DNA from: Aquisalimonas sp.
GTDB lineage: Bacteria > Pseudomonadota > Gammaproteobacteria > Nitrococcales > Aquisalimonadaceae
DNA: 47,557 bases
Assembly: GCF_007120195.1 (NCBI RefSeq)
Contig: NZ_SKOG01000119.1
Coordinates: 1-47,557 of the forward strand
Direction of reading: 5' to 3'
Of this stretch, positions 9,214 to 30,636 are shown piece after piece. Position 1 is the stretch's first letter, and every line of letters begins with the position of its first letter. A program made the position numbers and the translations under genes. The notes below the pieces were generated by a model that saw only the letters and a program-made list of their open reading frames with translations, did no database searches and had not been told where the DNA came from.

Positions 9214-9290
9214 CGGGGTGTAGCGCAGCCTGGTAGCGCACCTGCATGGGGTGCAGGTGGTCGCAGGTTCAAATCCTGCCACCCCGACCA
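9214..9290 (+). tRNA. tRNA-Pro, anticodon GGG
   Basis: A 77-base cloverleaf: acceptor CGGGGTG/CACCCCG, D-stem GCGC/GCGC, anticodon stem CCTGC/GCAGG (9241-9245/9253-9257) with loop ATGGGGT, T-arm GCAGG-TTCAAAT-CCTGC and encoded CCA (9288-9290). The anticodon GGG (9248-9250) reads CCC/CCU proline codons. C1-G72 is characteristic of bacterial tRNA-Pro. It marks the border between conserved core and accessory DNA. Confidence 0.97.
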
Positions 9291-10165: not shown

Positions 10166-10207
10166 CGATCGGCAGGAGTGAGACCGCGCTACCTTGGAGC
10201 TGCCCCC

Positions 10208-11434
10208 ATGCCAGCATCACGACAAGGCACCGATCGAATCGACAGTCTCGATGTCCTTAGAGGCTTTGCGATACTCGGCATTCTGGTCATGAACATCCAG
10301 GCCTTCTCGATGATCAGCCAAGCCTATATCAACCCGACGCTAGGAGGGACCTTCGAAGGCGTGGATTTTTGGCTGTGGGCACTGTCCCACATTGCTTTCG
10401 ACTCCAAATTCCTCGCGCTCTTCGCAGGGCTTTTCGGGGCGGGAATCGTTGTCATGGCGGAACGGGCAGAGGCGGCCGGAGCAGTGCCATGGCGTCAGCA
10501 CAGGCGACGGATGGGGATTTTGGCGCTGATCGGGCTGATCCACGCCTACGGCATCTGGTACGGGGACATCCTGTTCATCTATGCGGCGATCGGCATGATC
10601 GCCTTCGCCTTCCGCAACGCGTCGATCCGACGCCTGCTGGTCTTCGCCGCGCTCTTCTACACCGTGCCCCTTGTCGTCGCGCTGGGGATGACAGGGCTTC
10701 TCTACGCCATGCCGGGACCGGAGTACGACGCCACGGTCGCGGCGTACTGGCAGCCTTCGGCCGAAGCCATCGCAGCGCAGCAGGAGGCCTACCGCAGCGG
10801 CTGGCTTGGTCAGATGGCCCAGCGCGTCCCGGATGCAGCCACCATGCATTTACTGGTCCTGCCGATGGAGGAGGGCTGGCGGGTGCTCGGGTTGATGCTC
10901 GCCGGGATGGCGGCGCTGAAAAGCGGGCTGCTCACCGGCGCCTGGTCGGTGCGCCGCTACGCCCGCACGGGCCTGCTCGGCGCCGCTGTCGGGCCGCCGA
11001 TTGTCATTGCGGGCGTGGTCTTCAACCAGGCGACAGGCTGGGAGATGAAGACCTCACTGTATCTCGGTGCCATGTTCAACCACATCGGCGCGCCCCTGGT
11101 CACCCTGGCCTGGGTTTGTGGCGTGCTGATGGCGCTCAAACGCGGTCTTTGGGCGCCGCTGCTGGGGCGGCTGCGCGCCGTCGGCCAGACCGCCCTGAGC
11201 TGTTATCTCCTCACCAGCGTGCTCTGCGTCGCCGTGTTCTACGGTCACGGGCTGGGCCTGTTCGGGCAGGCCGACCGCATCCTCCAGTTCTTGATCGTAC
11301 TCGCCGTCTGGGCGGTTCTGCTGATCGTGGCGCCGGCATGGCTTCGCCGTTTCCACATGGGCCCGGTGGAGTGGCTGTGGCGGTGGGGCGTGAGAGGGGA
11401 GAGGCCGGCGCTACGGCGCCAGATCGCCGCGTAA
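10208..11434 (+). CDS. DUF418 family inner-membrane protein
   Basis: A 408-residue polytopic membrane protein of the YeiB/DUF418 type; the function of the family is not firmly known. It begins MPASRQGTDRIDSLDVLRGF, where RIDSLDVLRGFAILGI is the typical N-terminal signature with the first membrane helix. About ten hydrophobic segments follow, with the DUF418 region in the C-terminal half. The ATG at 10208 follows GGAG at good spacing; the frame is open further upstream only because it runs through the vapC remnant. Confidence 0.88.
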   Translation: MPASRQGTDRIDSLDVLRGFAILGILVMNIQAFSMISQAYINPTLGGTFEGVDFWLWALSHIAFDSKFLALFAGLFGAGIVVMAERAEAAGAVPWRQHRRRMGILALIGLIHAYGIWYGDILFIYAAIGMIAFAFRNASIRRLLVFAALFYTVPLVVALGMTGLLYAMPGPEYDATVAAYWQPSAEAIAAQQEAYRSGWLGQMAQRVPDAATMHLLVLPMEEGWRVLGLMLAGMAALKSGLLTGAWSVRRYARTGLLGAAVGPPIVIAGVVFNQATGWEMKTSLYLGAMFNHIGAPLVTLAWVCGVLMALKRGLWAPLLGRLRAVGQTALSCYLLTSVLCVAVFYGHGLGLFGQADRILQFLIVLAVWAVLLIVAPAWLRRFHMGPVEWLWRWGVRGERPALRRQIAA

Positions 11435-11673
11435 CCGACCACGTGGCGTTCCGTTGCATGAAGCGAGCGCATGAATCGATGGAAGGCCTGATGGACGAGG
11501 TCAATGCACGGGGTGAGCGCCAGGAAAAGGATTGAGCAGATCCATTGAGGCACCTCTCGCGGCGGGGTCATCGCCATCCAGCCGCGAAGGGTGCCAGCGA
11601 CCCGTTACGGCGCTGTGACGCAGAAGGCCCGTAACAGCGCACCCGCGCCGCGGCCTACACGGCCGGGGTGGAA

Positions 11674-12342
11674 TCAGAAGCTCGTGCTGAAGCCCGCCAC
11701 GAAAAGGTTTTGAGCATCGCTCTCATCCCGCGAGGCGTAGGTCAGGGAGATGTCGCCCTGCTGCACCGAGCGGGTCAGGCCCACTTCTCAGAACGCCGCG
11801 CCGCTCTCGTCGTCCGGATCGTCGTAGCCGATGGTGCCATCGAGGCTGGTGCCAGGCATGAACTCGTAGCCGGTGCCGATGGCGTAAACCACACTGCCTT
11901 CGGCATCACGGTCATGGGCGTTGGTGATATAGCCGACCTCGGCGTCCACTCGCCCGATACTGGCACCGAGAATGGTCTCGCCCTCATAGCGTGCCCCGGA
12001 GGTGTCTGGGGTGGCGATGTACTCGTAGGCCAGTTCCAGGTTTGCCGGCCCGGCGCTCAACCCGTAGCCAACATACGGAATGATCTCGGAGCCGTGGAAT
12101 TCATCGGCGCTGTCATTGCTCAGGTTGGAGACTGCCGTACCCACGAACAGCCCGCTGTGATGACCGTGTTCAAACACGCCTTGAACCACCGCGTTGTTGC
12201 CGGAGCGCTACTCGCCGTTGTCGATGTAGTCGCTGAACACGCCAACGCTGAACTCGCCCTGGGTCTGCGCGGTACCTGTTGCGGCAAGCAGCGCGACGGT
12301 GCCCGCGCACGTGGTGATGATGTTGCCGTGGTTTCGGGCCAT
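11674..12342 (-). pseudogene. TorF-family putative porin with two in-frame stop codons
   Basis: Outer-membrane beta-barrel protein of about 222 residues. The start ATG (12340-12342) has a good GGAGGT site and is followed by a signal peptide ending near GTAQTQG. The reading is cut by TAG at 12208-12210 and by TGA at 11788-11790, yet the frame is kept to a proper stop at 11674 with the barrel-like end FVAGFSTSF. Segments such as SVGVFSDYIDNGE and PYVGYGLSAGPANLELAYEY fit the family. Both stops fit single transitions (Gln to TAG, Trp to TGA), though the original residues are guesses. It lies downstream of the MgtE_N-like gene in the same orientation. Confidence 0.75.
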
Positions 12343-12409
12343 GGTGACCTCCGTCTGATAGCGAATGTCAGGAAGCCGCAGAGAGCCGGTCGGCTGCCTG
12401 GGGAGCCAT

Positions 12410-12748
12410 CTAGGCTGCGGGCCGGCGGCCTCGCTCAAGGCGAATGCGCCGGTCGGTACCCACGGCGTCCAGCAGTCCCGCGGCCAGCGCCGGATCGGCA
12501 TGCGCCAGGACTTCCCGGATCACCTGGTCCGACACCGAGTCCAGCAGCCGTTGGCGGTCGTCTTGCTCCAGTGCGCCGAGCAGGCGGCAGCGGTCCGCCG
12601 GCCGACTTTCCAGGAACACGACTGCGGCGCGCCAGCGGGGCAGGGCACGGATCGTTTCAACGCAGGATTGGGCCGGTAGCGTTGCAAGTTCACGGGCCAT
12701 GACACGGGGCAGCGTGGATTCCAGGTTGGCGCGGTTGATTTCCGTCAT
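12410..12748 (-). CDS. Small MgtE_N-like helical protein
   Basis: 112 residues, starting MTEINRANLESTLPRVM at an ATG preceded by GGGAGG. The middle repeats short helices of the type RPADRCRLLGALEQDDRQRLLDSV, resembling the superhelical N-terminal domain of MgtE magnesium transporters. The transport domain is absent, so it is either a small stand-alone adaptor or a fragment. The function is unknown. Confidence 0.6.
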   Translation of the reverse strand: MTEINRANLESTLPRVMARELATLPAQSCVETIRALPRWRAAVVFLESRPADRCRLLGALEQDDRQRLLDSVSDQVIREVLAHADPALAAGLLDAVGTDRRIRLERGRRPAA

Positions 12749-12767
12749 GGTGCATCCTCCCGGCAGT

Positions 12768-12792
12768 GGTCCGGGCGTTCCACGCCCGGACC
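12768..12792. terminator. Strong 10-bp hairpin upstream of the MgtE_N-like gene
   Basis: GGTCCGGGCG (12768-12777) pairs perfectly with CGCCCGGACC (12783-12792) around a 5-base loop. No T-run follows on either strand. It sits between the small gene and a truncated membrane-protein end. Confidence 0.5.
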
Positions 12793-12804
12793 GGGTGTAT
12801 GGTT

Positions 12805-12870
12805 TCACAGGCTGACCGGCAGCAGCCAGGCGGCGATCATGAAGTAGACGGCCAGGCTGCTGAATTGTTG
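12805..12870 (-). pseudogene. C-terminal end of a truncated membrane protein
   Basis: Read on the minus strand, the sequence gives SSLAVYFMIAAWLLPVSL and a TGA stop at 12805. It looks like a last transmembrane helix whose gene is otherwise missing. The family cannot be named. Confidence 0.4.
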
Positions 12871-12911
12871 CTCCCATTAAACACATTTTCTCATGGCCGA
12901 CGCGCACTGCC

Positions 12912-12948
12912 TTTCTCTGAAAATACCGAAACAGTGTTTTCAGAGAAA
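12912..12948. repeat. 12-bp perfect inverted repeat
   Basis: TTTCTCTGAAAA (12912-12923) and TTTTCAGAGAAA (12937-12948) are exact inverted copies, 13 bases apart. The position next to a gene truncation fits the end of a mobile element or an operator; nothing else defines it. Confidence 0.6.
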
Positions 12949-13610
12949 AGCACCCCATCAGCCGGTCAAAAAACCGCATTTCCTCGCAGACGAACGCAGA
13001 TGACGCGTGGGATAAAGCCGCGCTTGCGCTGCCGCAATCGGTTGCTGATATTTCTTTTCTGAGGAGAACCAGGCCGTGCCGGCCTGGAAGAAGCGCCGCG
13101 GGTGCGGCGAGGACTTCAGGCGGGCAGGACGGCCGGGCGTGGTCCGCTCAGGCGGATATCCCCGGAATTCCAACATCGACTACAAGGATCGTCCATCGTG
13201 TCTTTCTGTTGCCTCGCTACGGGTCCTTTAAGTGCGCAGAACTATACTGTTTCACGCTCCCGGGCGCAACCCCTCGTGAAGCCTTCCTATTCACGCCGCT
13301 TTGCAGGCGCGAGCGGAACGTGGGGGAGCCTGAATTCATCCTGATTCCATGCAGGCTGGTTCATCGCTGTTTCGGTATGCAGGAGGCTGCCCGACTTTCA
13401 ATATCGTGCGCCGCGGGACTACGGTGGCCTTCATCACTACATCGGCAATGCGGCAGCAACCGGCATCAATCCTCACCCGGCAACGGAACCCGGACCACGA
13501 TCCGGCGAAGCCCCACCATACCCGGCGCGGTTGCCGCGATCCGCAGGGCGGGGGATTCCCGACGCCTCGTACGCGCCGACGTACGGCCAGAGGTGGCCGG
13601 TCCAACCTGT
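12949..13610. other. No recognisable gene
   Basis: Only short, non-matching readings are seen here on either strand. The plus frame at 13345-13659 has protein-like composition (PDFQYRAPRDYGGLHHYIG) but no usable start, so I do not call it a gene. Confidence 0.4.
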
Positions 13611-13909
13611 TCAGAAGTCTTGCAACAAGAAGTCTAACGCGCCGACGATTTCCGTATGACGGTCTTCAAGAGTGGCGACTGGCTTGCCCAAGGCCGAGCC
13701 GGGCACGGCCGAAAGGAACTGAGTCAGCATGGCAAATTCTTGAGGTCCCAGACGAAAAACTGGGTTCAGCCTGCAGCCGGCGTGGGCGAATGATCGAGAG
13801 GCATCAGCGGAACGACGACGCGCGTGTTGTAATCCGCCAAGAGGTTTGCCTGCAGATCGAGCAGATAGCCGCGTTCATCCGGATTGGCATGAACGCCGAA
13901 GTGGCCCAT
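13611..13909 (-). pseudogene. ccdB: CcdB-type toxin, frameshifted
   Basis: Intact CcdB poisons DNA gyrase. The first part, GVHANPDERGYLLDLQANL to PLDHSPTPAAG, stops at a TGA; a -1 shift there restores the remainder, LNPVFRLGPQEF to GALDFLLQDF, ending at 13611. The fused sequence has the family length (about 100 residues) and the typical hydrophobic end. A single lost base near 13777 explains the break. Its ATG overlaps the ccdA stop as TGATG, typical of translational coupling. The toxin is probably inactive unless the shift is bypassed. Confidence 0.8.
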
Positions 13910-14154
13910 CAGAACTGACGGTAGTGCCCGAGCGGCAATCCATGCCGCTCCACATAGGCGTTGGCGCTTTCGATCGCCTGCCGGTTCTCGCGCAGCCAAC
14001 GCGCTTCGCGCTCGGTCGCGATCGCCCGTGCAAGCCCGATTTCTGCCGCCGTCGACACGTTCACCCCAAGTTCTCGCGCCTCTGCCAACAAGTCCTCACG
14101 AAGCGATACGTTGGTGGCGCGCTTGCGGGGCTTGGGGCGGGTTTTTTGAGCCAT
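13909..14154 (-). CDS. ccdA: CcdA-type antitoxin
   Basis: An 81-residue antitoxin with an N-terminal DNA-binding region (TNVSLREDLLAEARELGVNVS, a ribbon-helix-helix pattern) and a flexible C-terminal toxin-binding tail containing WLRENRQAIESANAYVERHG. It neutralises CcdB and represses its own operon. The start ATG (14152-14154) follows GAGAGGA. An inverted repeat lies just upstream. It appears intact although its toxin partner is frameshifted. Confidence 0.88.
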   Translation of the reverse strand: MAQKTRPKPRKRATNVSLREDLLAEARELGVNVSTAAEIGLARAIATEREARWLRENRQAIESANAYVERHGLPLGHYRQF

Positions 14155-14184
14155 TGGTCCTCTCTGCACTGACTTTCCGCCAAT

Positions 14185-14202
14185 ATACCGAACATAAGGT
14201 AT
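14185..14202 (-). promoter_or_regulatory. Candidate operator of ccdAB
   Basis: ATACC (14185-14189) and GGTAT (14198-14202) form an inverted repeat with an 8-base centre, 31 bases before the ccdA start. A TATATT element overlaps one side. This fits an autoregulatory CcdA site. Confidence 0.5.
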
Positions 14203-14206
14203 GGGC

Positions 14207-14510
14207 ATGTCGATGCGCATCAAAACTCCGCACGCCAATGCGGCAGCGACACGCACACAAGACTCGCCTGGCGCACGAGTATGGCGTTAGAGAGCTGGCG
14301 CTGATTGGTTCGGTGGCGCGGGATGACGCAACGGACACGAGCGACATCGACGTGCTTGTGCAGTTCGATGGCACGGCGACTGCAAAGCGGTACTTCGGCG
14401 TGTAGTTCTACCAGGAGGACCTGCTGGGCTGCCCTGTAGACCTGGTGTCGGACAAAGCGCCCCGCCCGGAGCTGCGGCCGTACGTCGAACGCGAAGCGAT
14501 TCATGTCTGA
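14207..14510 (+). pseudogene. mntA: MntA-type nucleotidyltransferase antitoxin, broken
   Basis: In MNT-HEPN modules the MntA protein AMPylates and blocks the HEPN ribonuclease. The active-site signature is clear: LIGSVARDDATDTSDIDVLV fits the GSxAR...SDxDxxV pattern. TAG at 14403-14405 interrupts it where the family has Gln (FGL-Q-FYLEDLLG), then the frame continues to the normal end, VEREAIHV. The N-terminus is also off: the likely start (ATG 14207 or 14213, MRIKTP) is in a different frame from the catalytic part. The stop overlaps the next gene by 8 bases. Confidence 0.8.
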
Positions 14511-14703
14511 GAGCAAATCGTCCCAACGCGAATGGGTCTTTCACCTTGATGGCATGATTGCCTTCGCTGAGAAAGTCCAGGCCTATACCGCCGGCCTGGT
14601 TCAGGCCGACTTCGTTCGGGACGCCCGCGGTGGATCTGGTGGTGCGCGCCAAGCAGGGTGGACAGTGACTCGATGTCAACTCGCACCCGTAATTTGGGGG
14701 TGA
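14503..14703 (+). pseudogene. hepT: HepT (HEPN, DUF86) toxin, truncated
   Basis: It starts MSESKSSQREWVFHLDGMI and follows the DUF86 family through KVQAYTAGLVQADFVRD, about 40 residues. After that the sequence is unrelated and ends at 14703. The RNase motif Rx4-6H, which lies in the C-terminal half of the family, is missing, so it cannot be an active toxin. It overlaps mntA as in intact MntA-HepT modules. Confidence 0.78.
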
Positions 14704-14729
14704 TTACCGCATAAAGTCATTTTATAGCG

Positions 14730-14798
14730 TATGGCACATAAACAAAGCATATGCGCCATACCCGATATTGCTAGTTTATCGGATACGGCACATAATAC
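14730..14798 (+). promoter_or_regulatory. Repeated operator-like sites upstream of hipB
   Basis: GTATGGCACATAA (14730-14742) recurs as GATACGGCACATAA (near 14783-14796), and GCCATAC (14755-14761) is the inverse of GTATGGC. Three related half-sites in an AT-rich leader fit autorepression by HipB. Confidence 0.55.
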
Positions 14799-14814
14799 GG
14801 TCGGGGTGAACATC

Positions 14815-15066
14815 ATGGCCGACCTCGCACGCACACCGAAACAAATCGGCAACCTGGTTCGCCGGGCGCGGAAGATGCGTCGCCTTACACAGTCAGAGCT
14901 TGGCGCGATGGCCGGACTGCGCCAAGAGACCATCTCGCTTATCGAGACCGGCAATCCGGCTACGAAGCTCGAGACCATGCTGGCGGTACTCGCGGCGCTG
15001 GATCTGGAGTTCCGGATTATGCCGCGATCGAAAGGCGGGGGTGCCGATATCGAGGATATTTTCTGA
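14815..15066 (+). CDS. hipB: HipB-type antitoxin, XRE helix-turn-helix
   Basis: An 83-residue regulator and antitoxin. The helix-turn-helix covers about 16-70 with LTQSELGAMAGLRQETISLIE. The ATG at 14815 (MADLARTPKQIGNLVRRARK) is preferred over an in-frame ATG at 14731 because the latter would translate the operator repeats. The TGA overlaps the hipA start as TGATG, so the pair is translationally coupled. It binds HipA and represses the operon in studied systems. Confidence 0.9.
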   Translation: MADLARTPKQIGNLVRRARKMRRLTQSELGAMAGLRQETISLIETGNPATKLETMLAVLAALDLEFRIMPRSKGGGADIEDIF

Positions 15067-16379
15067 TGCCGCGCCGCCGGCGCCATGAGCCCCTGCGGGT
15101 CCTCCTGAATAACCGTCTTGTCGGTCACCTGAGCAAGGCGGCGAGTGGCGCCATCGCCTTTCACTATGATCAAAGCTGGCTGGACTGGGAGCATGCGCTT
15201 CCGGTCTCGCTCTCCCTGCCCTTGCGCGAGGATGCCTACCGGGGCGAGCCGGTTGTCGCCGTGTTCGACAACCTACTGCCGGACTCAGGTGCGCTCCGCC
15301 GGCGCGTCGCCGAGAAGGTCGGCGCCGCCGGCACCGACGCCTACAGTCTACTCGCCGCCATCGGGCATGACTGCGTCGGCGCCCTGCAGTTCATCAGTCC
15401 CGACGACGACATTGCCACGGATACCGCGGCCATTGCAGGCGAGCCCGTGGACGATGCCGCGATCGAGAAACTGCTCATGGGCCTCGCGCAGGCACCGCTG
15501 GGTCTGGACCGGGAGGATGCGTTCCGTATCTCTGTCGCCGGTGCCCAGGAAAAGACCGCGCTGCTATGGCATGGGGGGCGCTGGCTCAAGCCGCACGGCA
15601 CGACGGCGACCACGCACATTTTCAAGACGCAGATCGGACGGCTGCCTAACGGCATAGATCTCTCGGACAGCGTCGACAACGAGTATTACTGCCTGAGGCT
15701 CGCCGCCGCCTTCGGTCTACCCGTCAACAATGCCGGGATTCGAACGTTTGGAGCGACAAGGGCGCTTGTGATCGAACGGTTCGACCGGCGCTGGGCTAAG
15801 GACGGACGCTTGCTTCGTCTGCCGCAGGAGGACTGCTGCCAGGCCCTCTCGGTACCGCCGACCCTAAAATATCAAAACGACGGTGGCCCGGGTCTGGTCC
15901 AGGTGCTGGATTTGCTGAAAGGCAGCGATAACCCGGCCGCGGATCAGGTCACGGTGTTCAAGGCGCAGATATTGTTCTGGCTGATCGGTGCCACCGATGG
16001 GCACGCCAAGAATTTCAGCATTTTCCTGACCCCCGGTGGCAGCTATCACCTCACGCCCCTTTACGATGTGCTCACGGCACAGCCAAGCCTCGATGCCCGC
16101 CAAATTGAGCGCAAGCAAATGCGGCTTGCCATGTCGGTCGGCACGCGCCGCCATTACAAGATCAGTGAAATCCAGGCGCGGCATTTCATACAGACAGGTG
16201 AGAAGACGGGGCTGCCTAAAGCACTTGTGCGCGATGCGCTCGCGGAAATGGCCGCTGCCGCTGCAGGGGCCATCGAGACAGTCGAAGGCGAACTGCCGGC
16301 GGATTTCCCGCCTGCGATTCATGACGCCGTGAAGGAGGCGGTTACGGCGCGCGTGCGCAAACTGGAAGAAGTCGCGTAA
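15066..16379 (+). CDS. hipA: HipA-type serine/threonine kinase toxin
   Basis: In E. coli, HipA phosphorylates glutamyl-tRNA synthetase and induces persistence. The product is 437 residues (E. coli 440). Key parts are present: the autophosphorylation loop FRISVAGAQEKTAL (Ser about 156), the catalytic segment ATDGHAKNFSIF (Asp 311, Asn 316) and the metal-binding YDVL (Asp 334). No lesion is visible, so this is the first intact TA pair in the region. The actual target here is not known. Confidence 0.93.
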   Translation: MPRRRRHEPLRVLLNNRLVGHLSKAASGAIAFHYDQSWLDWEHALPVSLSLPLREDAYRGEPVVAVFDNLLPDSGALRRRVAEKVGAAGTDAYSLLAAIGHDCVGALQFISPDDDIATDTAAIAGEPVDDAAIEKLLMGLAQAPLGLDREDAFRISVAGAQEKTALLWHGGRWLKPHGTTATTHIFKTQIGRLPNGIDLSDSVDNEYYCLRLAAAFGLPVNNAGIRTFGATRALVIERFDRRWAKDGRLLRLPQEDCCQALSVPPTLKYQNDGGPGLVQVLDLLKGSDNPAADQVTVFKAQILFWLIGATDGHAKNFSIFLTPGGSYHLTPLYDVLTAQPSLDARQIERKQMRLAMSVGTRRHYKISEIQARHFIQTGEKTGLPKALVRDALAEMAAAAAGAIETVEGELPADFPPAIHDAVKEAVTARVRKLEEVA

Positions 16380-16667: not shown

Positions 16668-17738
16668 ATTTCCCCAGGGCGCGACATCAATTGGCCCTCC
16701 TGGTTCGCGGCCGTAGCGACGGCCGCGATCGTTCTGGTGGTCCTCGTCCAGGGCCGCTACTTCCTCATCCCGCTGGCCATCGCCGTGCTGCTGTTCAGCC
16801 TGACCAGCGCCGCCGTTGACCGGCTGACCCGCCTGCGGCTCGGGCCGATTGCATTGCCGAACTGGCTGGCAAGCCTGATCAGTATCTTGCTGGTGCTCGC
16901 GGCGATGCTCGTGGTCCTGCGCATCCTCGCCGACCAGATCGAAGCGGTTATCGACGCCGGACCGCTCTACATCGAGCGCGGCCAGCAGTTGGTCGCAACC
17001 ATGGCCGCCTGGTTGGGCGACGACGCTGCCGCCGGCATTCGCCAGGCTTTCGAGGCGGTTGATTTCGGTGCCTATATTCGCGCCTTTGCCGGGTCGGCGG
17101 GCTATGCCCTGTCGGCCGCCGTGCTGATCGTGCTCTATATCGGCTTTCTGTTCGCCGAGCGCGCCCGGTTCCACGAAAAGCTGGCCCGCCTGCAACCCGA
17201 CCCGGCCCGGGCCGACAATCTGCTGCGTATGTTCCGCTCGATCACCCGCAGCGTTCATCGCTACATTCTGGTCAAGAGCGCGGTCAGCGTGATAACCGGA
17301 CTGGTGGTCTATCTGGTCATGCGCGCCTTCGGCCTGCAATTCGCCGAAACCTGGGCCCTGCTGACCATGCTGCTGAATTTCATTCCCAACATCGGCTCGA
17401 TCATCGCCACAGCGATCCCGACGCTGGTTGCGCTGGTGCAATTTGAGAGCTGGACGCTCGTCGTTCTGCTCTTCGCGACCATTGGACTGATCCAGTTCGC
17501 CGTGGGCAACATCCTCGAGCCCAACCTGATGGGCCGTTCGCTCAATCTCAGCCCCTTCGTCATCATCCTATCGCTGACGTTCTGGGGAGCAGTCTGGGGC
17601 ATCATCGGCATGTTCCTGGCCGTGCCGATCATGGTCATGCTGCTGATCGTCTGCGCGCACGTGCCGTCTCTGCACCCAGTGGCCGTGTTGCTCTCGCGCG
17701 ATGGTGTTCCCCTGCCGGACGAGGAGCATAAGGGCTGA
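16668..17738 (+). CDS. AI-2E family transporter (PerM/YdiK-like), probable AUU start
   Basis: A 356-residue inner-membrane permease with about eight hydrophobic segments; family members export AI-2 or act in ion stress, so the substrate is uncertain. The C-terminal signature with NILEPNLMGRSLNLSPFVI is well conserved. The first standard start is GTG at 16737, but that cuts off most of the first helix (SWFAAVATAAIVLVV). An ATT at 16668 sits 6 bases after a perfect GGAGG (16657-16661) and gives a complete protein, ISPGRDINWPSWF. I prefer it; GTG 16737 is the fallback. Confidence 0.85.
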   Translation: MSPGRDINWPSWFAAVATAAIVLVVLVQGRYFLIPLAIAVLLFSLTSAAVDRLTRLRLGPIALPNWLASLISILLVLAAMLVVLRILADQIEAVIDAGPLYIERGQQLVATMAAWLGDDAAAGIRQAFEAVDFGAYIRAFAGSAGYALSAAVLIVLYIGFLFAERARFHEKLARLQPDPARADNLLRMFRSITRSVHRYILVKSAVSVITGLVVYLVMRAFGLQFAETWALLTMLLNFIPNIGSIIATAIPTLVALVQFESWTLVVLLFATIGLIQFAVGNILEPNLMGRSLNLSPFVIILSLTFWGAVWGIIGMFLAVPIMVMLLIVCAHVPSLHPVAVLLSRDGVPLPDEEHKG

Positions 17739-17839
17739 GCTGACCCAGGGCCGGCGCGACCGCTGCTCGGCGGGATCGTGCTGGTCTCCACGGTCTCCGA
17801 CCGCTACCCTGCCTCGGACTCAACAACGGAGGTACCTAG

Positions 17840-20049: not shown

Positions 20050-23000
20050 TCACTCAGGCAAGAACACGACTTCGGGTAGCGCCACTTCCCAGTGGTCACA
20101 CCGCAGCATGCGCTGGTAATTCGCGTCTGAGCCCTCGCGCCGGCGAACGATAACAGCGGCGACTCGAACTTCAGCCGGGCGCCGGCCCGGTCGGATGCTG
20201 AATCGTTGTGCCATGCGCCCGATTTGCTGATCGCGGTCATCAAAGAGCGCCCAGCGGCCATCGACCTCGCGCAGATGCAACGTATCTCCCGGCTCCAGTG
20301 CCGCGAGCGCGTGGTGTACCGGATGCCGGGGTGCATGGCGGCCTGCGTAGCTCAGATCGACATCGCGGGGATTGAGCTGGGTGTACTCGCGATCGAGCCA
20401 TGGCTGTGGTTCGCCGCTCAAGGCGTCGTCGCGGATCTGCAAAGCCTCGAGCGCGGGCAGGGATGCGATCAGCGGGTTCGCGCTATTCAGCCGGCCGAGC
20501 GTCAGTGTCTCCATGGCCCGTGTCATGGCCACGTAGTAAAGGCGCCGTGGTGCATCCGGATCTTCGCCGCGGTCGTGGCGATCCCAGTTACCGTCGAGGA
20601 TGGCGACGTGAGCAAACTCCAGGCCTTTTGCCCGGTGGGCGGTCAACAGCAGCAGGCCGTGTTGCTTGCGGCGCAGCTCACGGCCCCACTCGACCAGCCA
20701 TTCGACCAGGTTCTTCCACGGCATCTCGGCCTCGGTCACCTGCAGCGCATAACCATCGATCGCCTCCCGCAGTACGTCCCACCAGTGCGTTCCCGGTTTG
20801 TCCGCAAGCCACGTGCGAACCTGGCTGGCAGCGATCAATGGTTCATCGTCGCCGTGTGTCTCGAGCCAGTGGATCAGTGCCTGCGTTTCGCGCAACCGCC
20901 AGAAGGGTGCCGCCTCATCACGGGCGAGCTGCACCGGGATGCCGTGGTGCTCGCACCAGGCGCGTACGGGATCAAGGAATTTCCATTCCCGGGCGATGAC
21001 GGCGGTCTGCGTCCACTCCCAGTCGGGATCCAGCTCGGCCAGGCGCTCCAGCTCGTTCATGACCGCGACCGCCTGCAGGCGCGGATCGTCCACCGGTGGC
21101 AGGCACTGCACGCGCCCGCCGCCGACCGGATCCAGTTTCTCCCAGCGCCCGCCTGGGGGCTCGTTCCGGCGGCCAGCGTTAATCACGATCGGATGTTTCG
21201 CCTTCATCCGCTGCTGCGCCGGCTGGATCAGTGCGTTGCTCATCGTGATGAGATGACGTGTCGCCCGATAGTTTTCGATCAGGTAGGCCGGCTTGGCCGA
21301 AAAATCGCTCTCGAAGCGGCGGATGAACTCCACTGAAGCACCGGCGAAGCCGTAGATGTTCTGATCGTCATCGCCCACCGCGAACAGGGAGAGTTTGCCG
21401 TCGGCGTCCTCCAGCGTGCGCCCGGCCAGCGCGGAGATCAGCTCGTACTGTTCGCGACCGATGTCCTGGTATTCGTCGACCAGGATCCAGCGGAACCCGC
21501 GCAGCAGTTGCTCGCGCTGGGCGTCCGCCTCCCCGGGCGGCAGGCCATCGCCCCGGAGTAGGCTCGTGGCGCGCGCAAGGATGTCACGGAAGTAGTCCTT
21601 GTCGACGACGTCGCGCCGTGCGAACAGGCTTTCGCCGGTCAGCCGCAGCGCCAGTGCATGGCAGGTCAGTATCGTCACCCCGGAAGCCTCCTCCGCGACC
21701 AGGGCGTGCAGGCGCTGGCGGATCTCGACTGCGGCGTGCCGGTTGTAGGCCAGGGCCAGGATGCGTTGCGGGCGTTCGCGCTGGACTCGAATCAGATAGG
21801 CAATGCGATGGACCAGCACGCGCGTCTTGCCGGAGCCCGGCCCAGCGAGAATCAGCACGTTGGTCTGCTGGCGTTCGTCGGTGACGATTTCCTGCTGCTG
21901 GCGGTTGCGCAGCGACTCCACGATCTCGCGCCAGGAAGTCGGCGTGGTCTGGCGCTTCAGCTCCGGTTCGCGTCCGGGCATCCAGTGCGTAATGAACTCG
22001 TCGCGCCGCAGGCGGAAGTAATCAAAGGCAAGCTGCAGCGCCTCGGCCATCTTCTCGCGCCCGCGCTGCGCGTACTCGGCCATGATGTGGATCTGGGTGG
22101 ACTGATTCTGGTAATGAATGGATAGCGGCTGAAAGTCGGTCCTGTTGAAACGCCGCTTTTCGGCTGACAGGCGAATGGTCATCGCCGGCCGGAACACCGC
22201 CAGCCCCTTATTCAGGCGAATGACATTCTGCTCATGCAGCCAGAGCAGGGCATGGTCGACGAGTCGCTCCGGTCGTTTCATCCGGCCCTGCAGCGCAATG
22301 TCGCCGTTGACGGCCGCCACCAGTTGGCCGAGGGTCGTCTCGGCAAGCTTGTCCTTGCCGCGCGTGCCTTCAGGCAACGCGCCCTCCAGGTGCGCGAGCA
22401 GGACTGCGGCGGCATCGCGGCGTAGCTCGGCCGTCTGGCGCAGCGCTGCCCATTCCCGGTTCAGGGTGACCTGCACGGACTCGGCATCGAAGCTGCGCAG
22501 GCCGATGCTGCCACCACCGCCATCCTCGCCGCGCCCATCGGCACTGAGGCTCTTCAGCAGCCGATGCAGCTTGTCCGGGAGCGAGTGCTCATGGCCTGCA
22601 TCCTTCAGTCGCTGATTCGCATGACGCAGATGCAGGACGGAGGCTTCCCCTCGCGTCAGCTCCGGCGCATGTTCGACCATCTCGTCGATCAGCGCCTTCT
22701 CCAGCCCCACGACCTGTTCAAGTCGCCGGCGCGAGGAATCCTCCACGGCGACGTGCATGTAGGCGGTCAGCGCTGTGTCATTGCTCGCGACCCCAAGGCT
22801 CTCAAGATCATGGAGTGCGGTGCGAACACCCTGGGAGGACAGCCCGGAGGCTGCCATGAGTTCGTCCGTGGAAATCCCCTCGTCCGCATCGGCAGTCAGC
22901 AGGGCGTCGACGATGTGCATCAGCTGTTTGCGGTAGTCATCATGTTCGATGCGCTTTGCGATTAGACGGTGCGCCTCGGCGGCCGAGCCAATGCGCAGCG

Positions 23001-25200
23001 ACGACGGGAACACCTGGACGTAGTTCTCCTCGCGCGACAGCAGCGCGGTTTCCTCGAGCCACGCCACCGCCGTGCGGACGCGGGTATCGTCGGTCGCCGT
23101 GTCGCGTTCGAAGGCGCCGCTATCCTCTTCGACGAGGATCTCCCCGGTCGTCGCGACGATGTCCTCCTCGGCACCCTTCCAGCGCTTCAACCGGCGCAGC
23201 GAGCGCAATACCGCATTGATCTCCCGCCGCGTCAGCCGCGAGCGCGCGGACATGGAGAACTGGCGCTCGATGTCCGGTTCCGTCTCCATGAGGATGCACT
23301 GCGCAGGCCGCTGGTCACGGCCGGCGCGTCCCGCTTCCTGCAGATAGTTCTCCAGCGAGCCGGGAATGTCGGCATGGATCACCAGGCGGACATCCGGTTT
23401 GTCGATGCCCATACCGAAGGCGTTGGTGGCCGCGATGACCTGGATCTCGCCGGCGATGAAGCGTGTCTGGGTGTCCTGTCTTGCCTCCGGAGGCATGCCC
23501 GCATGAAAGTGTGCCGCCACCAGCCCCTGGTTGCGCAGGTAATCGGCGATCTCCTCGGTGTTCCTGCGCGTCGAGCAGTAGACAATTGCTCCGCCGTCGA
23601 CAGGCTCAGGCATCTCCTGGCGCAGGACCTCGTGAATGTGGGGGAGCTTGTGCTCGCGGCTCGTGGGGATGACCGAGAAGTCGAGGTTTTTCCGATTCGC
23701 ACCACCATCGAATACGTGCAGTTCGAGTCCGATGTGGTGCCGGAAATGGTCAACGATGTCATCGACCACGTCCGGCTTTGCCGTCGCCGTCAGGCACATC
23801 ACCGGCGGGATCTCGTGGTTACCCGCGCGCTCGCGGATGAAGCGTCCGATGTAGCGGTAGTCCGGGCGAAAATCATGGCCCCATTTGGACAGGCAGTGCG
23901 CTTCGTCGAGTACCCAGGCACCGATCGCGCGCTGTTCGAGTGCCCGGCGAAACGTCCGATTGCGCAGTTGCTCGGGCGAGACGATGACGATACCGGCGTC
24001 ACCCATGCGGATACGTTGCAGGGCATCGGCGCGCTCCGGCATCGACAGCATGCCGTTGATGGTTACGCAGCAGCCGATCCCGCGGGCCTCGAGCCCCGAG
24101 ACCTGATCCGACATTAAGGCGACGAGCGGTGAGATCACCACCGTTAGCGCGCCGGTCTTGTCGAACCGCGACAGCGCCGGGATCTGGTAACACAGTGACT
24201 TGCCCGTCCCGGTAGGCAGAATCCCGAGGAGGTGCTCGCGGGCCATCGCGGCCTTCACAATCTCCGCCTGCAGCGGTTGGCCGCTGGCGTCGGCCGGTTC
24301 CGGCCGAAACTCGGCGAAGCCGAACCAGCGTGTCAGCTCCCGCCGGGGATCATGGCGCTCGCGGCACCAGGCGCATTCAGGGTTGCCACAGGGCTGGTCG
24401 CGAAGTGCGCGCACGATCCGGCCGGCATCCGTGAACTGGTGGAGCACCCAGGGCGGCATCACCGAGTTGCCCCCGGCCACGGACAGCCAGGCGAGAGCGA
24501 AGGCGAACGGCCAGCCCTGATCATGCGCGTTCGCCAGCATCTCGTGCACGTGGGTGACACAGGCCCGGCCATCAAGAAACCGGCGGATCGCCCGGGCTGC
24601 TTCCTCGTCGCCCGGGCGCCGTGTTCCCCGAATGGTCGTGAAGAATGAATCCATTCCCCTGCGTGGATCCTCCTGGGTGGTCAGCCAGTGCCAGCCCGAC
24701 ACCAGGACGGGATCGGCCCGGGCGAGATCGCGCAGCGCCGCCCACTGGTCCGAGAACAGCTCCAGCACCAGGCGCGCGTCGAGTTCGGGATTGTTCCGCT
24801 GGCCGCCCTGGATCTGGCCGTCCTGGTAATGCTTGACCAGCCGGTGATAGGGGTTCTTCGGAAAGGCGAGCGGGTTGAGCCGGAGCGTGTCGACACAGGG
24901 CAGGGCGAGGATGCCCAGGTCGGCACGGGCGGCACGTAGATGCGGAAGGTCGAAAGCAACCAGGTTGTGGCCGAGCAGAAACCGTACGCCCTCGGCGAAT
25001 GCATCCAGCTGCTGCAGCGCGTCGCGAACCTGTTTCGCTCCGGTGGCAGTCAACGCCTCGCCACCGTCGCCCCGCACGGCGGCAAGCTTGTGGATTCGGC
25101 GATCCTTGATGCCGACCTCAAGATCGATCGACAGCGCCCGGGGCGCCAGGCGCTTGCCGGCTTCCGTGTCGGAGGCGATCTTTGCCATTACATCTTCCAT
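20050..25200 (-). CDS. DnaQ-like exonuclease / RecQ / UvrD fusion helicase
   Basis: A 1716-residue DNA repair or defence protein. Residues about 20-170 resemble a DEDD 3'-5' exonuclease: SIDLEVG, GHNLVAFDLPHL, NPELDARLVLELF. A cysteine cluster, CGNPECAWC, lies near 270. A RecQ helicase follows: Walker A LPTGTGKS (about 326), DEAH (about 429), GMGIDKPDVR and QEAGRAGRD. The last third is a UvrD/Rep-type superfamily 1 helicase: AGPGSGKT (about 1117), VDEYQD (about 1241), DDDQNIYGF (about 1280), HRAKGLEF (about 1525) and VAMTRAMETL (about 1557). All core motifs are intact. ATG 25200 or ATG 25188 (MAKIASD, better spaced from GGAAG) are possible starts. The biological role is not known. Confidence 0.92.
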   Translation of the reverse strand: MEDVMAKIASDTEAGKRLAPRALSIDLEVGIKDRRIHKLAAVRGDGGEALTATGAKQVRDALQQLDAFAEGVRFLLGHNLVAFDLPHLRAARADLGILALPCVDTLRLNPLAFPKNPYHRLVKHYQDGQIQGGQRNNPELDARLVLELFSDQWAALRDLARADPVLVSGWHWLTTQEDPRRGMDSFFTTIRGTRRPGDEEAARAIRRFLDGRACVTHVHEMLANAHDQGWPFAFALAWLSVAGGNSVMPPWVLHQFTDAGRIVRALRDQPCGNPECAWCRERHDPRRELTRWFGFAEFRPEPADASGQPLQAEIVKAAMAREHLLGILPTGTGKSLCYQIPALSRFDKTGALTVVISPLVALMSDQVSGLEARGIGCCVTINGMLSMPERADALQRIRMGDAGIVIVSPEQLRNRTFRRALEQRAIGAWVLDEAHCLSKWGHDFRPDYRYIGRFIRERAGNHEIPPVMCLTATAKPDVVDDIVDHFRHHIGLELHVFDGGANRKNLDFSVIPTSREHKLPHIHEVLRQEMPEPVDGGAIVYCSTRRNTEEIADYLRNQGLVAAHFHAGMPPEARQDTQTRFIAGEIQVIAATNAFGMGIDKPDVRLVIHADIPGSLENYLQEAGRAGRDQRPAQCILMETEPDIERQFSMSARSRLTRREINAVLRSLRRLKRWKGAEEDIVATTGEILVEEDSGAFERDTATDDTRVRTAVAWLEETALLSREENYVQVFPSSLRIGSAAEAHRLIAKRIEHDDYRKQLMHIVDALLTADADEGISTDELMAASGLSSQGVRTALHDLESLGVASNDTALTAYMHVAVEDSSRRRLEQVVGLEKALIDEMVEHAPELTRGEASVLHLRHANQRLKDAGHEHSLPDKLHRLLKSLSADGRGEDGGGGSIGLRSFDAESVQVTLNREWAALRQTAELRRDAAAVLLAHLEGALPEGTRGKDKLAETTLGQLVAAVNGDIALQGRMKRPERLVDHALLWLHEQNVIRLNKGLAVFRPAMTIRLSAEKRRFNRTDFQPLSIHYQNQSTQIHIMAEYAQRGREKMAEALQLAFDYFRLRRDEFITHWMPGREPELKRQTTPTSWREIVESLRNRQQQEIVTDERQQTNVLILAGPGSGKTRVLVHRIAYLIRVQRERPQRILALAYNRHAAVEIRQRLHALVAEEASGVTILTCHALALRLTGESLFARRDVVDKDYFRDILARATSLLRGDGLPPGEADAQREQLLRGFRWILVDEYQDIGREQYELISALAGRTLEDADGKLSLFAVGDDDQNIYGFAGASVEFIRRFESDFSAKPAYLIENYRATRHLITMSNALIQPAQQRMKAKHPIVINAGRRNEPPGGRWEKLDPVGGGRVQCLPPVDDPRLQAVAVMNELERLAELDPDWEWTQTAVIAREWKFLDPVRAWCEHHGIPVQLARDEAAPFWRLRETQALIHWLETHGDDEPLIAASQVRTWLADKPGTHWWDVLREAIDGYALQVTEAEMPWKNLVEWLVEWGRELRRKQHGLLLLTAHRAKGLEFAHVAILDGNWDRHDRGEDPDAPRRLYYVAMTRAMETLTLGRLNSANPLIASLPALEALQIRDDALSGEPQPWLDREYTQLNPRDVDLSYAGRHAPRHPVHHALAALEPGDTLHLREVDGRWALFDDRDQQIGRMAQRFSIRPGRRPAEVRVAAVIVRRREGSDANYQRMLRCDHWEVALPEVVFLPE

Positions 25201-28367: not shown

Positions 28368-28730
28368 GCGGTGATGTGCAGCGTTATCGCGCCGAGCAAA
28401 GCTCGGCGTATCTTGCGGGGTGAAAGGGCCCACCAGGAAAGGGCTGCCACCCACCCGTATCGAGTTTAGGACCTGTGGCGGAGTGGAGGATCACGGACAA
28501 AGCAGAAAGCAGGTTGAGCGTAGACAGAGAATTCTCTAGGCCGCAGGGGTGGTCGCGCACCCTGAGAAGCTGGTACAGCTTCGACAAGCTCAGTCCTATG
28601 CCTGCTTCTGCGAGCGCTGAGAGGGGCATCCGCGTGGTGTTCTCGCGCGCGGCGCCGATTCTCGGCGCGGTGGCGCAAGGGCAAGTCTAGGCCGTGAGGC
28701 CGTTATGGTTTGTCGCGGGCCTGCAGAGCA
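28368..28730. other. No recognisable gene; short hairpin
   Basis: CGCCGAGC-AAA-GCTCGGCG near 28390-28409 forms an 8-bp stem. Readings in both directions are low-complexity Arg/Ser-rich and match nothing I know. Confidence 0.4.
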
Positions 28731-29048
28731 TCAGTTGATTGCGAGCGCTGCACCCATTCGGGCGAACAGCGCGAGGTTGTGCGCCGCTACCACACTCGAC
28801 CATACGTAGGCTTTGAAGTGGTCGATGCCCTTCCAGGTGCAGCGGGCAAGCGCAAAGCAACGCTTGAGCCAGGAGATGCCCGCGTCGACCCCGGCGCGGA
28901 AGTTGCGCAGCTTGCGGTACACCCAGGTGCTCTTGAGAATCTGTTCAATGTCCAGGCCGCGCTTCTTGTGAAAAGCGACATCCTTTACGCCACGCTCCTT
29001 TACTTTAAGCACGTTGTCTTTGCTGTTAAGGCAAACGTTATGTGGCAT
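28731..29048 (-). pseudogene. DDE transposase C-terminal fragment (ISNCY-like)
   Basis: 105 residues ending in LARCTWKGIDHFKAYVWSSVVAAHN, typical of the last part of a DDE transposase with the catalytic Glu region RAGVDAGISWLKRCF. The N-terminal two thirds are missing. The family label is tentative (ISNCY/IS1202-like). The fragment abuts the hicAB cassette. Confidence 0.7.
29036..29042 (+). other. Possible R' core before hicAB
   Basis: GTTATGT preceded by GGCAAAC resembles the right end of an attC site. Together with GCATAAC at 29493-29499 it would frame hicAB as one cassette. Its left arm would have been lost to the transposase fragment. Confidence 0.35.
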
Positions 29049-29076
29049 GAATCAGAGCGCCAACGGACCTGGATGA

Positions 29077-29280
29077 ATGAAGGTCAAGGCACTGATCAAG
29101 CGGATCGAGGCGGATGGCTGGACCCAAACCCCAAACGAGGCAACGTGGAAGCCACCGGCAGTTCAGACATACAACCAAGGCCGGGAACCGTCACGATCTC
29201 GGGAAAGCCCAGCATTGATGTGCCGCCCGGCACCCTGAATAATGTGCTCAAGCAGGCTGGCCTCAAGAAGTGGGTGATTC
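29077..29280 (+). pseudogene. hicA: HicA-type mRNA interferase, two frameshifts
   Basis: HicA toxins cleave mRNA using a conserved histidine. Three consecutive frames must be joined to recover it: MKVKALIKRIEADGW from ATG 29077, then RGSHRQFRHTTK containing the GSHRQ catalytic-His segment, then GTVTISGKPSIDVPPGTLNNVLKQAGLK. Two single-base insertions explain this. The last frame runs without a stop into hicB. The toxin is very probably dead. Confidence 0.8.
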
Positions 29281-29282
29281 TT

Positions 29283-29498
29283 ATGCGCTATACGGTCGTT
29301 GTAGAGGAAGGTTCTACGAGCTGGGGAGCTTATGTCCCTGATCTGCCGGGGTGTGTTGCCGCAGCCGAAACCCGGGAAGAGGCGCTGCGGCTGATCCAGG
29401 AGGCAATCGAATTCCATTTGCAGGAGCTCAAGGAACAAGGAGAGCCAATCCCCGAGCCTCATTCTTACGGAGAAGTAGTCGAGGTCCATGCCGCATAA
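29283..29498 (+). CDS. hicB: HicB-type antitoxin
   Basis: 71 residues with the partial RNase H-like HicB fold: MRYTVVVEEG, then WGAYVPDLPGCVAAAETREEALRLIQEAIEFH in pieces typical of the family, and an acidic end. It binds and neutralises HicA. The ATG at 29283 is the natural start. The TAA lies inside GCATAAC (29493-29499), the same arrangement as at the attC site 27553-27559, suggesting a cassette whose attC was cut off. Confidence 0.88.
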   Translation: MRYTVVVEEGSTSWGAYVPDLPGCVAAAETREEALRLIQEAIEFHLQELKEQGEPIPEPHSYGEVVEVHAA

Positions 29499-29959: not shown

Positions 29960-29962
29960 TTG

Positions 29963-29977
29963 GATCCATTTTGGATC
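29963..29977 (+). promoter_or_regulatory. Candidate operator of the FitAB-type pair
   Basis: GATCC (29963-29967) and GGATC (29973-29977) form a short inverted repeat, 16 bases before the antitoxin ATG and just ahead of its GGAGG site. It fits binding by a ribbon-helix-helix antitoxin. Confidence 0.45.
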
Positions 29978-29992
29978 TGCGGAGGTTGTGTC

Positions 29993-30235
29993 ATGGCGAC
30001 TATGACGCTGAAGAATGTTCCTGACGAGCTGTACGAGCGGCTAAAGGAAGCTGCCTCTCGCCATCGGCGCAGCTTGAACAACGAGGCGATCGTCTGCCTT
30101 GAGCAGGCGCTGGAGAGCGGCCCGGTTGACCCGAAGCGTCTGCTAGCGCAGGTTAGAAAGGTCCGGGCGCGTGGGGCCAACGTGTACGTCACGGACGACG
30201 ATCTTCGTGCCGCGCGGGATGAAGGGCGGCCGTGA
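29993..30235 (+). CDS. FitA/VapB-type ribbon-helix-helix antitoxin
   Basis: 80 residues, starting MATMTLKNVPDELYERLKEA, the classic FitA beta-strand and helix DNA-binding pattern, with RSLNNEAIVCLEQAL completing it. The C-terminal tail (VYVTDDDLRAARDEGRP) binds the toxin. GGAGG at 29980 supports ATG 29993 over an earlier in-frame ATG at 29960. The stop overlaps the toxin start as GTGA. Confidence 0.9.
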   Translation: MATMTLKNVPDELYERLKEAASRHRRSLNNEAIVCLEQALESGPVDPKRLLAQVRKVRARGANVYVTDDDLRAARDEGRP

Positions 30236-30636
30236 TCGCCGCCGATACCAACTTGCTGGTGTATCTCCTACTCACCGGTGAGCACACCGCTGCCGCCGAA
30301 CGGGTCTTGGAGCAAGATGCTGAATGGGCGGTTCCGCTGCTTTGGCGGAGCGAGCTCCGCAACGTGCTGGCGCTTTACCTGCGGCGTGGGCTGCTCGCCT
30401 ATGAGGCCGCACTAGAAGTCTTTCAGCAGGCCGAGCTGCTTGTGCAGGGGCGCGAGTACGAGGTGGATACGGCTCAGGTCATGGCATGCGTCAGCGAGTC
30501 CAGCTGCTCGGCGTACGACTGTGAGTTCGTCAGCCTCGCTCATGAGCTGAAGGTCCCGCTGGTCACATCGGATCGAAAGGTCATTGCAACGTTTCCGAGT
30601 TTGGCTGTTTCGCCAGAGGATTTCGGACGCAAATAG
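30232..30636 (+). CDS. PIN-domain toxin (FitB/VapC type)
   Basis: A 134-residue ribonuclease. The acidic PIN residues are visible: AADTNLLVYLL (first Asp), RSELRNVLA (Glu), SAYDCEFVSLA (Asp) and LVTSDRKV (last Asp). Such toxins cut tRNA or other RNA and are neutralised by the antitoxin just upstream. The GTG start at 30232 overlaps the antitoxin stop. A degraded partial copy lies at 9984-10165, 20 kb away. No lesion is seen. Confidence 0.92.
   Translation: MIAADTNLLVYLLLTGEHTAAAERVLEQDAEWAVPLLWRSELRNVLALYLRRGLLAYEAALEVFQQAELLVQGREYEVDTAQVMACVSESSCSAYDCEFVSLAHELKVPLVTSDRKVIATFPSLAVSPEDFGRK

Follow-up and report, generated by a model that had tools for sequence, protein, structure and literature searches.

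A single polypeptide joining DEDD-type exonuclease, RecQ-type and UvrD-type helicase and HIRAN-like domains, from Aquisalimonas sp.

The gene described here lies at positions 20050-25200, on the minus strand, of a 47,557-nucleotide stretch of DNA from Aquisalimonas sp. (contig NZ_SKOG01000119.1; the whole stretch is hereafter referred to as the window). Its product, a protein of 1716 residues, is composed of an exonuclease domain, a cysteine-containing region, a RecQ-type core, a winged-helix-like linker, a UvrD-type core and a HIRAN-like barrel, and this order is conserved across the family. The accumulated evidence supports its assignment as an accessory, mobile DNA-processing gene. More tentatively, we propose that it encodes a horizontally mobile, stand-alone, single-polypeptide helicase-nuclease that would engage DNA ends or gaps, and whose likeliest use would be the surveillance and destruction of foreign or damaged DNA.

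In the broad sense the protein belongs to the RecQ, UvrD and DEDD superfamilies, and it falls outside every named defense system tested. Database records for the family provide only the name "RecQ family ATP-dependent DNA helicase." Helicase-nuclease fusions are already known as a kind, and the architecture is rated here as a further variant. No description of an exonuclease-RecQ-UvrD-HIRAN arrangement was found in the open-access literature searched, although an earlier description elsewhere may exist; passages of PMC5512222 and PMC2587704 do not describe it.

Architecture of the fusion protein

The original prediction, made from the sequence alone, had a proofreading-type exonuclease, RecQ and UvrD helicases and a cysteine cluster residing on one polypeptide. 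The open reading frame (ORF) is indeed single and uninterrupted, with a base composition of the coding type. Its features, all on the minus strand, are the following.

20050..25200, minus strand: whole gene, a single ORF of 1716 residues with an ATG start at 25200
24751..25143, minus strand: DEDD-type 3'-5' exonuclease domain, residues 20-150 (invariant acidic residues and fold matches)
24301..24750, minus strand: helical region with four cysteines, residues 151-300 (cysteine conservation; helical in the AlphaFold2 model)
23266..24303, minus strand: RecQ-type superfamily 2 (SF2) helicase core, residues 300-645 (Pfam, NCBIfam, motifs)
21925..23265, minus strand: inter-helicase linker, residues 646-1092 (∼450 residues, family-conserved)
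20491..21924, minus strand: UvrD-type superfamily 1 (SF1) helicase core, residues 1093-1570 (Pfam, motifs)
20053..20406, minus strand: HIRAN-like β-barrel, residues 1599-1716 (AlphaFold2 model and fold matches)

Residue conservation was evaluated with 83 aligned homologs. They comprise the window protein, 11 plasmid copies, 2 sequences of relatives and 69 sequences out of 85 loci in genomes and viral contigs; the remaining 16 loci, at which no ORF reaches 95% coverage, were left out.

A Pfam scan of the protein yields no significant match before residue 309 or after residue 1570, and separate Pfam scans of the two end domains give chance-level matches only. An AlphaFold2 model of residues 12-305, built from 51 sequences, has a predicted local distance difference test score (pLDDT) of 89.1 and a predicted template modeling score of 0.85. 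It aligns with Staphylococcus aureus DinG with a Z-score of 15.2 and a root-mean-square deviation of 4.8 for 260 residues, which are spread over DinG residues 3-450. Match rows 3-50 are occupied by DnaQ, RNase T, oligoribonuclease, TREX-like and polymerase exonucleases with Z-scores of 10.5-12.9, and Foldseek gives an E-value of 5.6e-05 to the TREX1 homolog Plex9.1. The PDB sequence profile is weak (DinG, E 0.032). The proofreading-type exonuclease of the original prediction is thus borne out by fold, despite the lack of a significant Pfam match.

The exonuclease motifs are D26-x-E28, GHN77-79...D84, D104-T-L and N136-x-P-x-x-D141. Asp 26, Glu 28, Asp 84, Asp 104 and Asp 141 are invariant in all 83 homologs, and these acidic residues (D-x-E, D, D), together with the DnaQ-like fold, place the domain in the DEDD superfamily. 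In motif III, DEDD enzymes carry a His or a Tyr, which defines the DEDDh and DEDDy subgroups. The family belongs to neither, with Asn in 81 and Ser in 2 of the 83 homologs; a His of S. aureus DinG aligns in the Asn 136 column. Distant copies from Deinococcus, Pseudanabaena and Bacteroides likewise display N-[DN]-P-x-x-D, and the copy from Deinococcus sp. AJ005 (L194) retains the exonuclease motifs. The original statement that all motifs are intact is therefore inexact with respect to motif III, whereas it holds for the acidic residues and for the Walker A lysines, Lys 334 and Lys 1125 (83/83). Equally invariant are Asp 432/Glu 433/His 435 and Asp 1242/Glu 1243/Gln 1245/Asp 1246.

The predicted cysteine cluster is well conserved: Cys 214, Cys 271, Cys 276 and Cys 279 are retained in 80, 81, 81 and 82 homologs, respectively. 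These residues may form a metal or iron-sulfur (Fe-S) site. Note that most of the fold matches end near model residue 193, and the cysteine-bearing part is thus barely covered by the fold comparison.

The RecQ core contains the motifs PTGTGKS, DEAH, TAT and QEAGRAGRD, and the aromatic-rich loop HCLSKWGHDFRPDY. Among its invariant columns in 14 sequences are Asp 432-Cys 436, Ser 438, Trp 440, Gly 441, Asp 443-Arg 445, Asp 447 and Tyr 448. Both helicases of the original prediction are recognized by Pfam and NCBIfam. For the RecQ region (∼309-645), Pfam gives DEAD at 1.3e-32 and Helicase_C at 1.5e-22, and the broad NCBIfam model TIGR00614 (recQ_fam) scores 308.6 bits against a cut-off of 219.8. 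The scores for the canonical bacterial RecQ equivalogs, in contrast, lie far below their cut-offs (TIGR01389, 345.7 versus 640.2 bits; PRK11057, 255.4 versus 1015 bits), as judged among the best 25 NCBIfam models. The zinc-binding Cys4 of canonical RecQ is absent, the window protein having no cysteine between residues 635 and 1180, and neither RQC nor HRDC is matched by Pfam.

The linker, which did not figure in the original prediction, is winged-helix-like at residues ∼771-853. The best PDB profile matches of this segment are winged-helix regulators (E 0.0085), and its Pfam match is HTH_24 at E 0.16 only. It may be a remote equivalent of RQC. Following the linker, the UvrD core contains GPGSGKT, DEYQD, GDDDQNIYGF, HRAKGLEF and YYVAMTRA. 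Its membership in the UvrD/Rep/PcrA superfamily (residues ∼1099-1568) is indicated by PF00580 (2.6e-42; 145.8 versus 23 bits) and PF13361 (3.3e-09; 37.1 versus 25.6 bits), and among the same 25 models the UvrD, PcrA and Rep equivalogs remain below cut-off, the best being 168.3 versus 965 bits.

The structure predictions proposed at the outset point to a DinG-like exonuclease at the N-terminal end and to a HIRAN-like barrel at the C-terminal end, the latter also new with respect to the original prediction. The model of residues 1575-1716 has a pLDDT of 89.3. Among solved structures it is matched best by lp_0118 (Z 8.9), and the top ten are completed by five HLTF HIRAN entries (Z 6.1-6.6), two Hachiman HamB entries (Z 6.2 and 6.0) and two Rad5 entries (Z 6.0). 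The first HamB entry is 20% identical across 74 residues. Below the tenth, Z-scores are 3.4 or less and include a third HamB entry at 3.0. All named HIRAN domains have Z-scores under 8 and the Foldseek E-values are 0.06 or worse, and the domain is therefore designated "HIRAN-like." The Pfam HIRAN model finds no match in 14 family members at E≤1, and may not reach so far. A PDB profile match of the C-terminus to ribosomal L13 (E 0.2-1.6) was judged spurious.

Conservation, distribution and genomic setting

In 69 of the 85 loci examined one ORF covers at least 95% of the protein, which rules out an assembly or gene-call artifact. Ten of the other 16 reach a contig end, three (L056, L073 and L092) are interrupted inside the contig, and L042, L058 and L107 remain. 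The homolog at L056 (about 11968-15526) is broken by roughly 3.5 kb and that at L073 at 12697-12743; a Nostoc plasmid copy (match H21) is split by an IS1634 transposase. For the Deinococcus peraridilitoris plasmid copy (L193, 5707-10076) the annotation gives two genes that differ in frame, and this copy appears to be frameshifted. At L038, a second C-terminal-like piece (16756-17760; query residues 1405-1715, 46%) is found downstream of the full-length copy.

The UvrD half is present in 29 plasmid records, and in 28 of these its position also gives a match to the RecQ part. The remaining record is a Sphaerotilus plasmid (L195, 7761-9815), in which a free-standing helicase of 684 residues matches the UvrD and C-terminal half. 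It is possibly an unfused ancestor or a fission product.

Scanning the genome collection with the whole protein gave no match. A profile of residues 15-305 yielded at least 558 relatives, of which the best 80 were retained, a set that leans to the window's own branch. The titles of these 80 include Pseudomonadota, Chloroflexota, Cyanobacteria, Acidobacteriota, Gemmatimonadota, Nitrospirales and Nitrospinota, as well as Latescibacterota, Poribacteria, Binatota, Dadabacteria, Elusimicrobia and others. In a FastTree tree calculated from residues 20-640, 13 NCBI phylum labels are represented. Mixed clades occur; one of them, with support 99, unites a cyanobacterium, an acidobacterium and an alphaproteobacterium. 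The Pseudomonadota require 7 changes. The cross-phylum placements may in part reflect mis-binned metagenome contigs, a worry that is reduced, but not removed, by several records titled chromosome. A 14-kb contig that carries the gene and is binned as Klebsiella pneumoniae (L070) is likely mis-binned, and its host label is not trusted.

Within families the presence of the gene is sporadic. No full-length copy was found in four same-genus and nine same-family genomes, some of them incomplete. In the same order 3 of 40 genomes carry it, one of them on two contigs, and two other families give matches in 6 of 74 and 32 of 198 genomes. In the last family, 22 of 33 places hold a frame of at least 1,600 residues; the other 11 are contig-end pieces and/or broken, among them a copy with an in-frame TGA (G504) and a 184-residue remnant at 681 kb of contig C1 in a two-contig genome (G497). 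A spread of 398 Pseudomonadota genomes contained 16 matches, the window's own included, with 14 frames of at least 1,686 residues, one of 1,487 residues and one 159-residue remnant.

At least 80% of the protein is contained in 23 of 72,556 plasmid records and in none of 50,697 phage records. Five IMG/VR contigs carry a homolog, one of which is cut by the contig end; on the other four, the matches of 34 neighboring ORFs include terminase, tail, ParB, methylase and transposition families.

The Aquisalimonas genome contains two further helicase frames, one of 625 residues with a RecQ core (contig C108) and one of 759 residues with a UvrD segment (contig C186). They are taken as the host's ordinary RecQ and UvrD, and replacement of either housekeeping enzyme is accordingly disfavored for this host. 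This finding, the patchy distribution, the carriage on plasmids and in some prophage-like settings and the broken copies constitute the grounds on which the gene is considered accessory and mobile.

The setting in the window is also variable. The order pheT-ihfA-merR-tRNA-Pro is the same in the same-genus genomes G001, G003 and G004. In the ∼16 kb beyond the tRNA in G001 and G003, none of 29 window genes tested recurs (E≤1e-10), and the G004 contig ends soon after the tRNA; the gene thus sits in a variable region. Other features of the window are listed below.

9214..9290, plus strand: tRNA-Pro(GGG), the last feature shared in order with the same-genus genomes
14731-16379: HipB-like helix-turn-helix and HipA kinase pair
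28710-29498: frame matching a HicB-like antitoxin, with a short HicA match
29960-30636: FitA-like/PIN toxin-antitoxin pair
45154-46251: Fic protein

The original prediction of an island rich in toxin-antitoxin and nuclease genes is upheld in its first part by these loci. As for the second, the PIN domain is the only nuclease family matched by Pfam in the 20 window ORFs scanned.

No common partner gene emerged from 1210 neighboring ORFs, predicted with a home-made gene caller. The two widest clusters are each represented at 8 of 83 loci; by eye, one consists of response regulators and the other of short-chain dehydrogenases. The dehydrogenases are always on the same strand as the homolog and lie within 600 bp of it in four cases. 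A two-gene system was rejected on the absence of a widely shared partner, although small or fast-evolving partners could escape. Two five-ORF clusters were also observed. The first, which includes L057 15741-16952, is found at five loci at a median distance of 1.4 kb, on the opposite strand in four of the five, and its members presumably resemble a NurA-type nuclease. The second, which includes L046 9324-9656, is found at four loci, within 600 bp at three and always on the same strand; we take its members to resemble a small nucleotidyltransferase.

Comparison with known helicase-nucleases

The closest relative of the N-terminal domain is DinG of Firmicutes (S. aureus and Bacillus subtilis), in which a DEDD exonuclease fold is likewise placed at the N-terminus and joined to a helicase in one chain. 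DinG is described as a 3'-5' exonuclease with one XPD-type helicase that contains an Arch domain (PMC12525004). It differs from the fusion family in having no RecQ, UvrD or HIRAN domain and in the His of its motif III. The four cysteines also set the family apart, since B. subtilis DinG is reported to lack cluster cysteines (PMC12525004).

HamB, the Hachiman helicase, is reported to sense damaged DNA and to be Ski2/Brr2-like, with a winged helix that is degenerate and a barrel of the OB-like type at the C-terminus; its nuclease, HamA, is a separate subunit (PMC12278908). The resemblance lies in the pairing of a nuclease with an SF2 helicase that has a winged helix and a C-terminal barrel, the latter matching the HIRAN-like domain; the differences are the separate HamA and the absence of a UvrD motor. 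Gabija, too, pairs a nuclease with a UvrD-type helicase, and of the 25 PADLOC matches listed for the UvrD half, those to GajB models rank highest. Gabija has no RecQ component, and its nuclease, GajA, is separate. Neither HamA nor GajA is present among the PADLOC matches (E≤1e-25) of 139 neighboring genes at 20 loci; the window's neighbors were scanned with Pfam only.

The best PADLOC matches of the RecQ core are DpdF and PsyrT/RqlH, RecQ-like proteins of defense or conflict systems. These matches end at the RecQ core, and the fusion family has no widely shared partner; PsyrA/ShosA-type genes are single matches among the 139 neighbors. In the PDB, the RecQ core matches that of WRN, a eukaryotic protein in which an exonuclease also precedes the RecQ core. 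Unlike the fusion, WRN is of the DEDDy type, contains RQC and HRDC, and is not known to have a UvrD or HIRAN domain. RecBCD and AddAB combine motors and nuclease in one machine as well, with SF1 motors and a PD-(D/E)XK-type nuclease there versus SF2 and SF1 motors and a DEDD domain here.

Proposed function and alternatives

In the reading that we tentatively favor, the HIRAN-like barrel and the winged-helix-like linker would attach to a DNA junction or to an end that is free or frayed. Next, the RecQ motor would open the duplex, the UvrD motor would travel along and clear the exposed strand, and the DinG-like exonuclease would trim the 3' strand. Both RecQ and UvrD are families of 3'-5' translocases. 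The targets might be intermediates of phages or plasmids that expose free ends, gaps or forks, and the role would be comparable to that of Hachiman and Gabija, which use separate subunits. We infer each of these biochemical steps, as well as the end preference, an exonuclease activity despite the Asn in motif III, and the defense role.

Defense is favored on the basis of the sporadic presence of the gene and its plasmid context. Also counted in its favor are the invariant catalytic residues, the DinG-like fold, the GajB matches, the interrupted copies, the additional RecQ-core and UvrD-segment frames in the host, and the presence of the defense helicase HamB among the solved relatives of the HIRAN-like barrel. 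Seventeen plasmid regions contain a homolog over most of its length, 13 of them with annotated neighbors (flanks of 8-15 kb per side, two near-identical Rhizobium copies included), and defense genes lie near four of the 13. A Thiothrix plasmid has a type I-D CRISPR-Cas system 4 kb from the homolog, and an Allochromatium plasmid a type I restriction-modification system at 1 kb. On a Scytonema plasmid the DISARM core DrmA-DrmB-DrmC (L192, 1231-7345) is located 2.4 kb upstream of the homolog (9746-14752) on the same strand, and two genes lie between them, one encoding pentapeptide repeats and the other a 614-residue ORF with matches to PDC-M55C and HEC-05, both candidate defense models. On a Pseudanabaena plasmid, a WYL regulator adjoins the homolog and a DruE1-like helicase is positioned two genes further; no other Druantia parts were recognized in the fetched flank.

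A number of observations weigh against this reading. The four plasmid cases, more suggestive than the chromosomal ones, are without a random-plasmid control, and the defense-island enrichment for which the original prediction proposed a survey is not seen on chromosomal contigs. Out of the best 80 loci, 20 were sampled for neighbors: PADLOC families at E≤1e-25 number 22 in the 139 nearest genes and 38 in 140 control genes that lie on the same contigs but no closer than 56 kb, a coarse comparison in that families rather than distinct genes are counted. The test side included Avs2, a type IIG enzyme, two type I S subunits and SoFic; the control side included a type I methylase, HmaC, PD-T4-6 and mad3 (among the best 25 of the 38). 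In 29 genomes from the same set, the Klebsiella-labeled bin G483 excluded, N6_Mtase matches come within 20 kb of a homolog in 1 of 123 cases (16 kb, G468; 1.1 expected) and HipA matches in 1 of 47 cases (15 kb, G482; 0.4 expected), the expected counts assuming uniform placement. HipA is near homologs in the window, on the two near-identical Rhizobium plasmids and on an Aliarcobacter plasmid; an association with HipA was rejected as not above chance in the 29 genomes. The Asn-variant exonuclease may be weak, slow, differently activated or silent. RecQ and UvrD are, moreover, repair families. Finally, the phylum labels are strongly clustered in the tree, with 16 changes against a minimum of 12 and a shuffled mean of 35, from which transfer between phyla looks limited or old. 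Neither the genome-contig controls nor this tree favors defense, and the clustering shifts weight from defense toward repair.

Defense is placed barely ahead of an accessory role in DNA repair or replication stress, which we regard as a serious possibility. Here the gene would have spread as a fitness gene for end resection or for fork or gap processing: RecQ would open the DNA, UvrD would strip proteins off single-stranded DNA, the exonuclease would trim 3' flaps and the HIRAN-like domain would locate the 3' end, by analogy with DinG, WRN and HLTF. RecQ, WRN, UvrD, DinG, HLTF and Rad5, the relatives of its modules, are established to act in repair or replication stress, and both the largely phylum-clustered tree and the chromosomal defense counts are in keeping with such a role. 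Yet repair genes seldom show such a scattered occurrence within families or such interrupted copies, and other RecQ and UvrD frames exist in the host. The original prediction would have been refuted by homologs confined to housekeeping contexts with a known repair role; neither such a context nor such a role was seen. A factor serving plasmids, islands or prophages themselves, in replication, transfer-strand processing or survival after entry, is viewed as unlikely. The 23 plasmid records, the IMG/VR contigs with terminase, ParB and transposition families nearby and the position of the gene beyond a tRNA gene would suit it, as would the Aliarcobacter copy, which adjoins parAB and rep, and a Deinococcus relative beside rep. 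Against these stand the diverse neighbors on genome contigs, with no shared mobile-element gene, the several homolog contigs labeled chromosome, and the lack of any phage record with at least 80% of the protein. That the protein is a decayed or artifactual fusion without coordinated function is highly improbable. The deviant motif III and the interrupted copies could be so explained, but this account is disfavored by conservation: the invariant exonuclease acidic residues and Walker A lysines, the identical domain order across phylum labels, and the joint matches of the UvrD half and RecQ part on plasmids.

A bolder version of the defense proposal, which we consider doubtful, is that of a single-gene immune system, carried under 13 phylum labels as a "RecQ helicase." Here the HIRAN-like domain would serve as an end sensor and, together with two motors that belong to different superfamilies, would license a latent, Asn-variant DEDD exonuclease having a four-cysteine, possibly Fe-S, gate. 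If the protein is active, one transferable gene would pack together functions that are normally divided among several repair or defense proteins, and such a helicase-nuclease would sit in the databases hidden as "RecQ." Its study would test whether a single gene suffices to detect DNA ends and to destroy DNA from them, and whether Asn can replace the catalytic His or Tyr in a working DEDD exonuclease.

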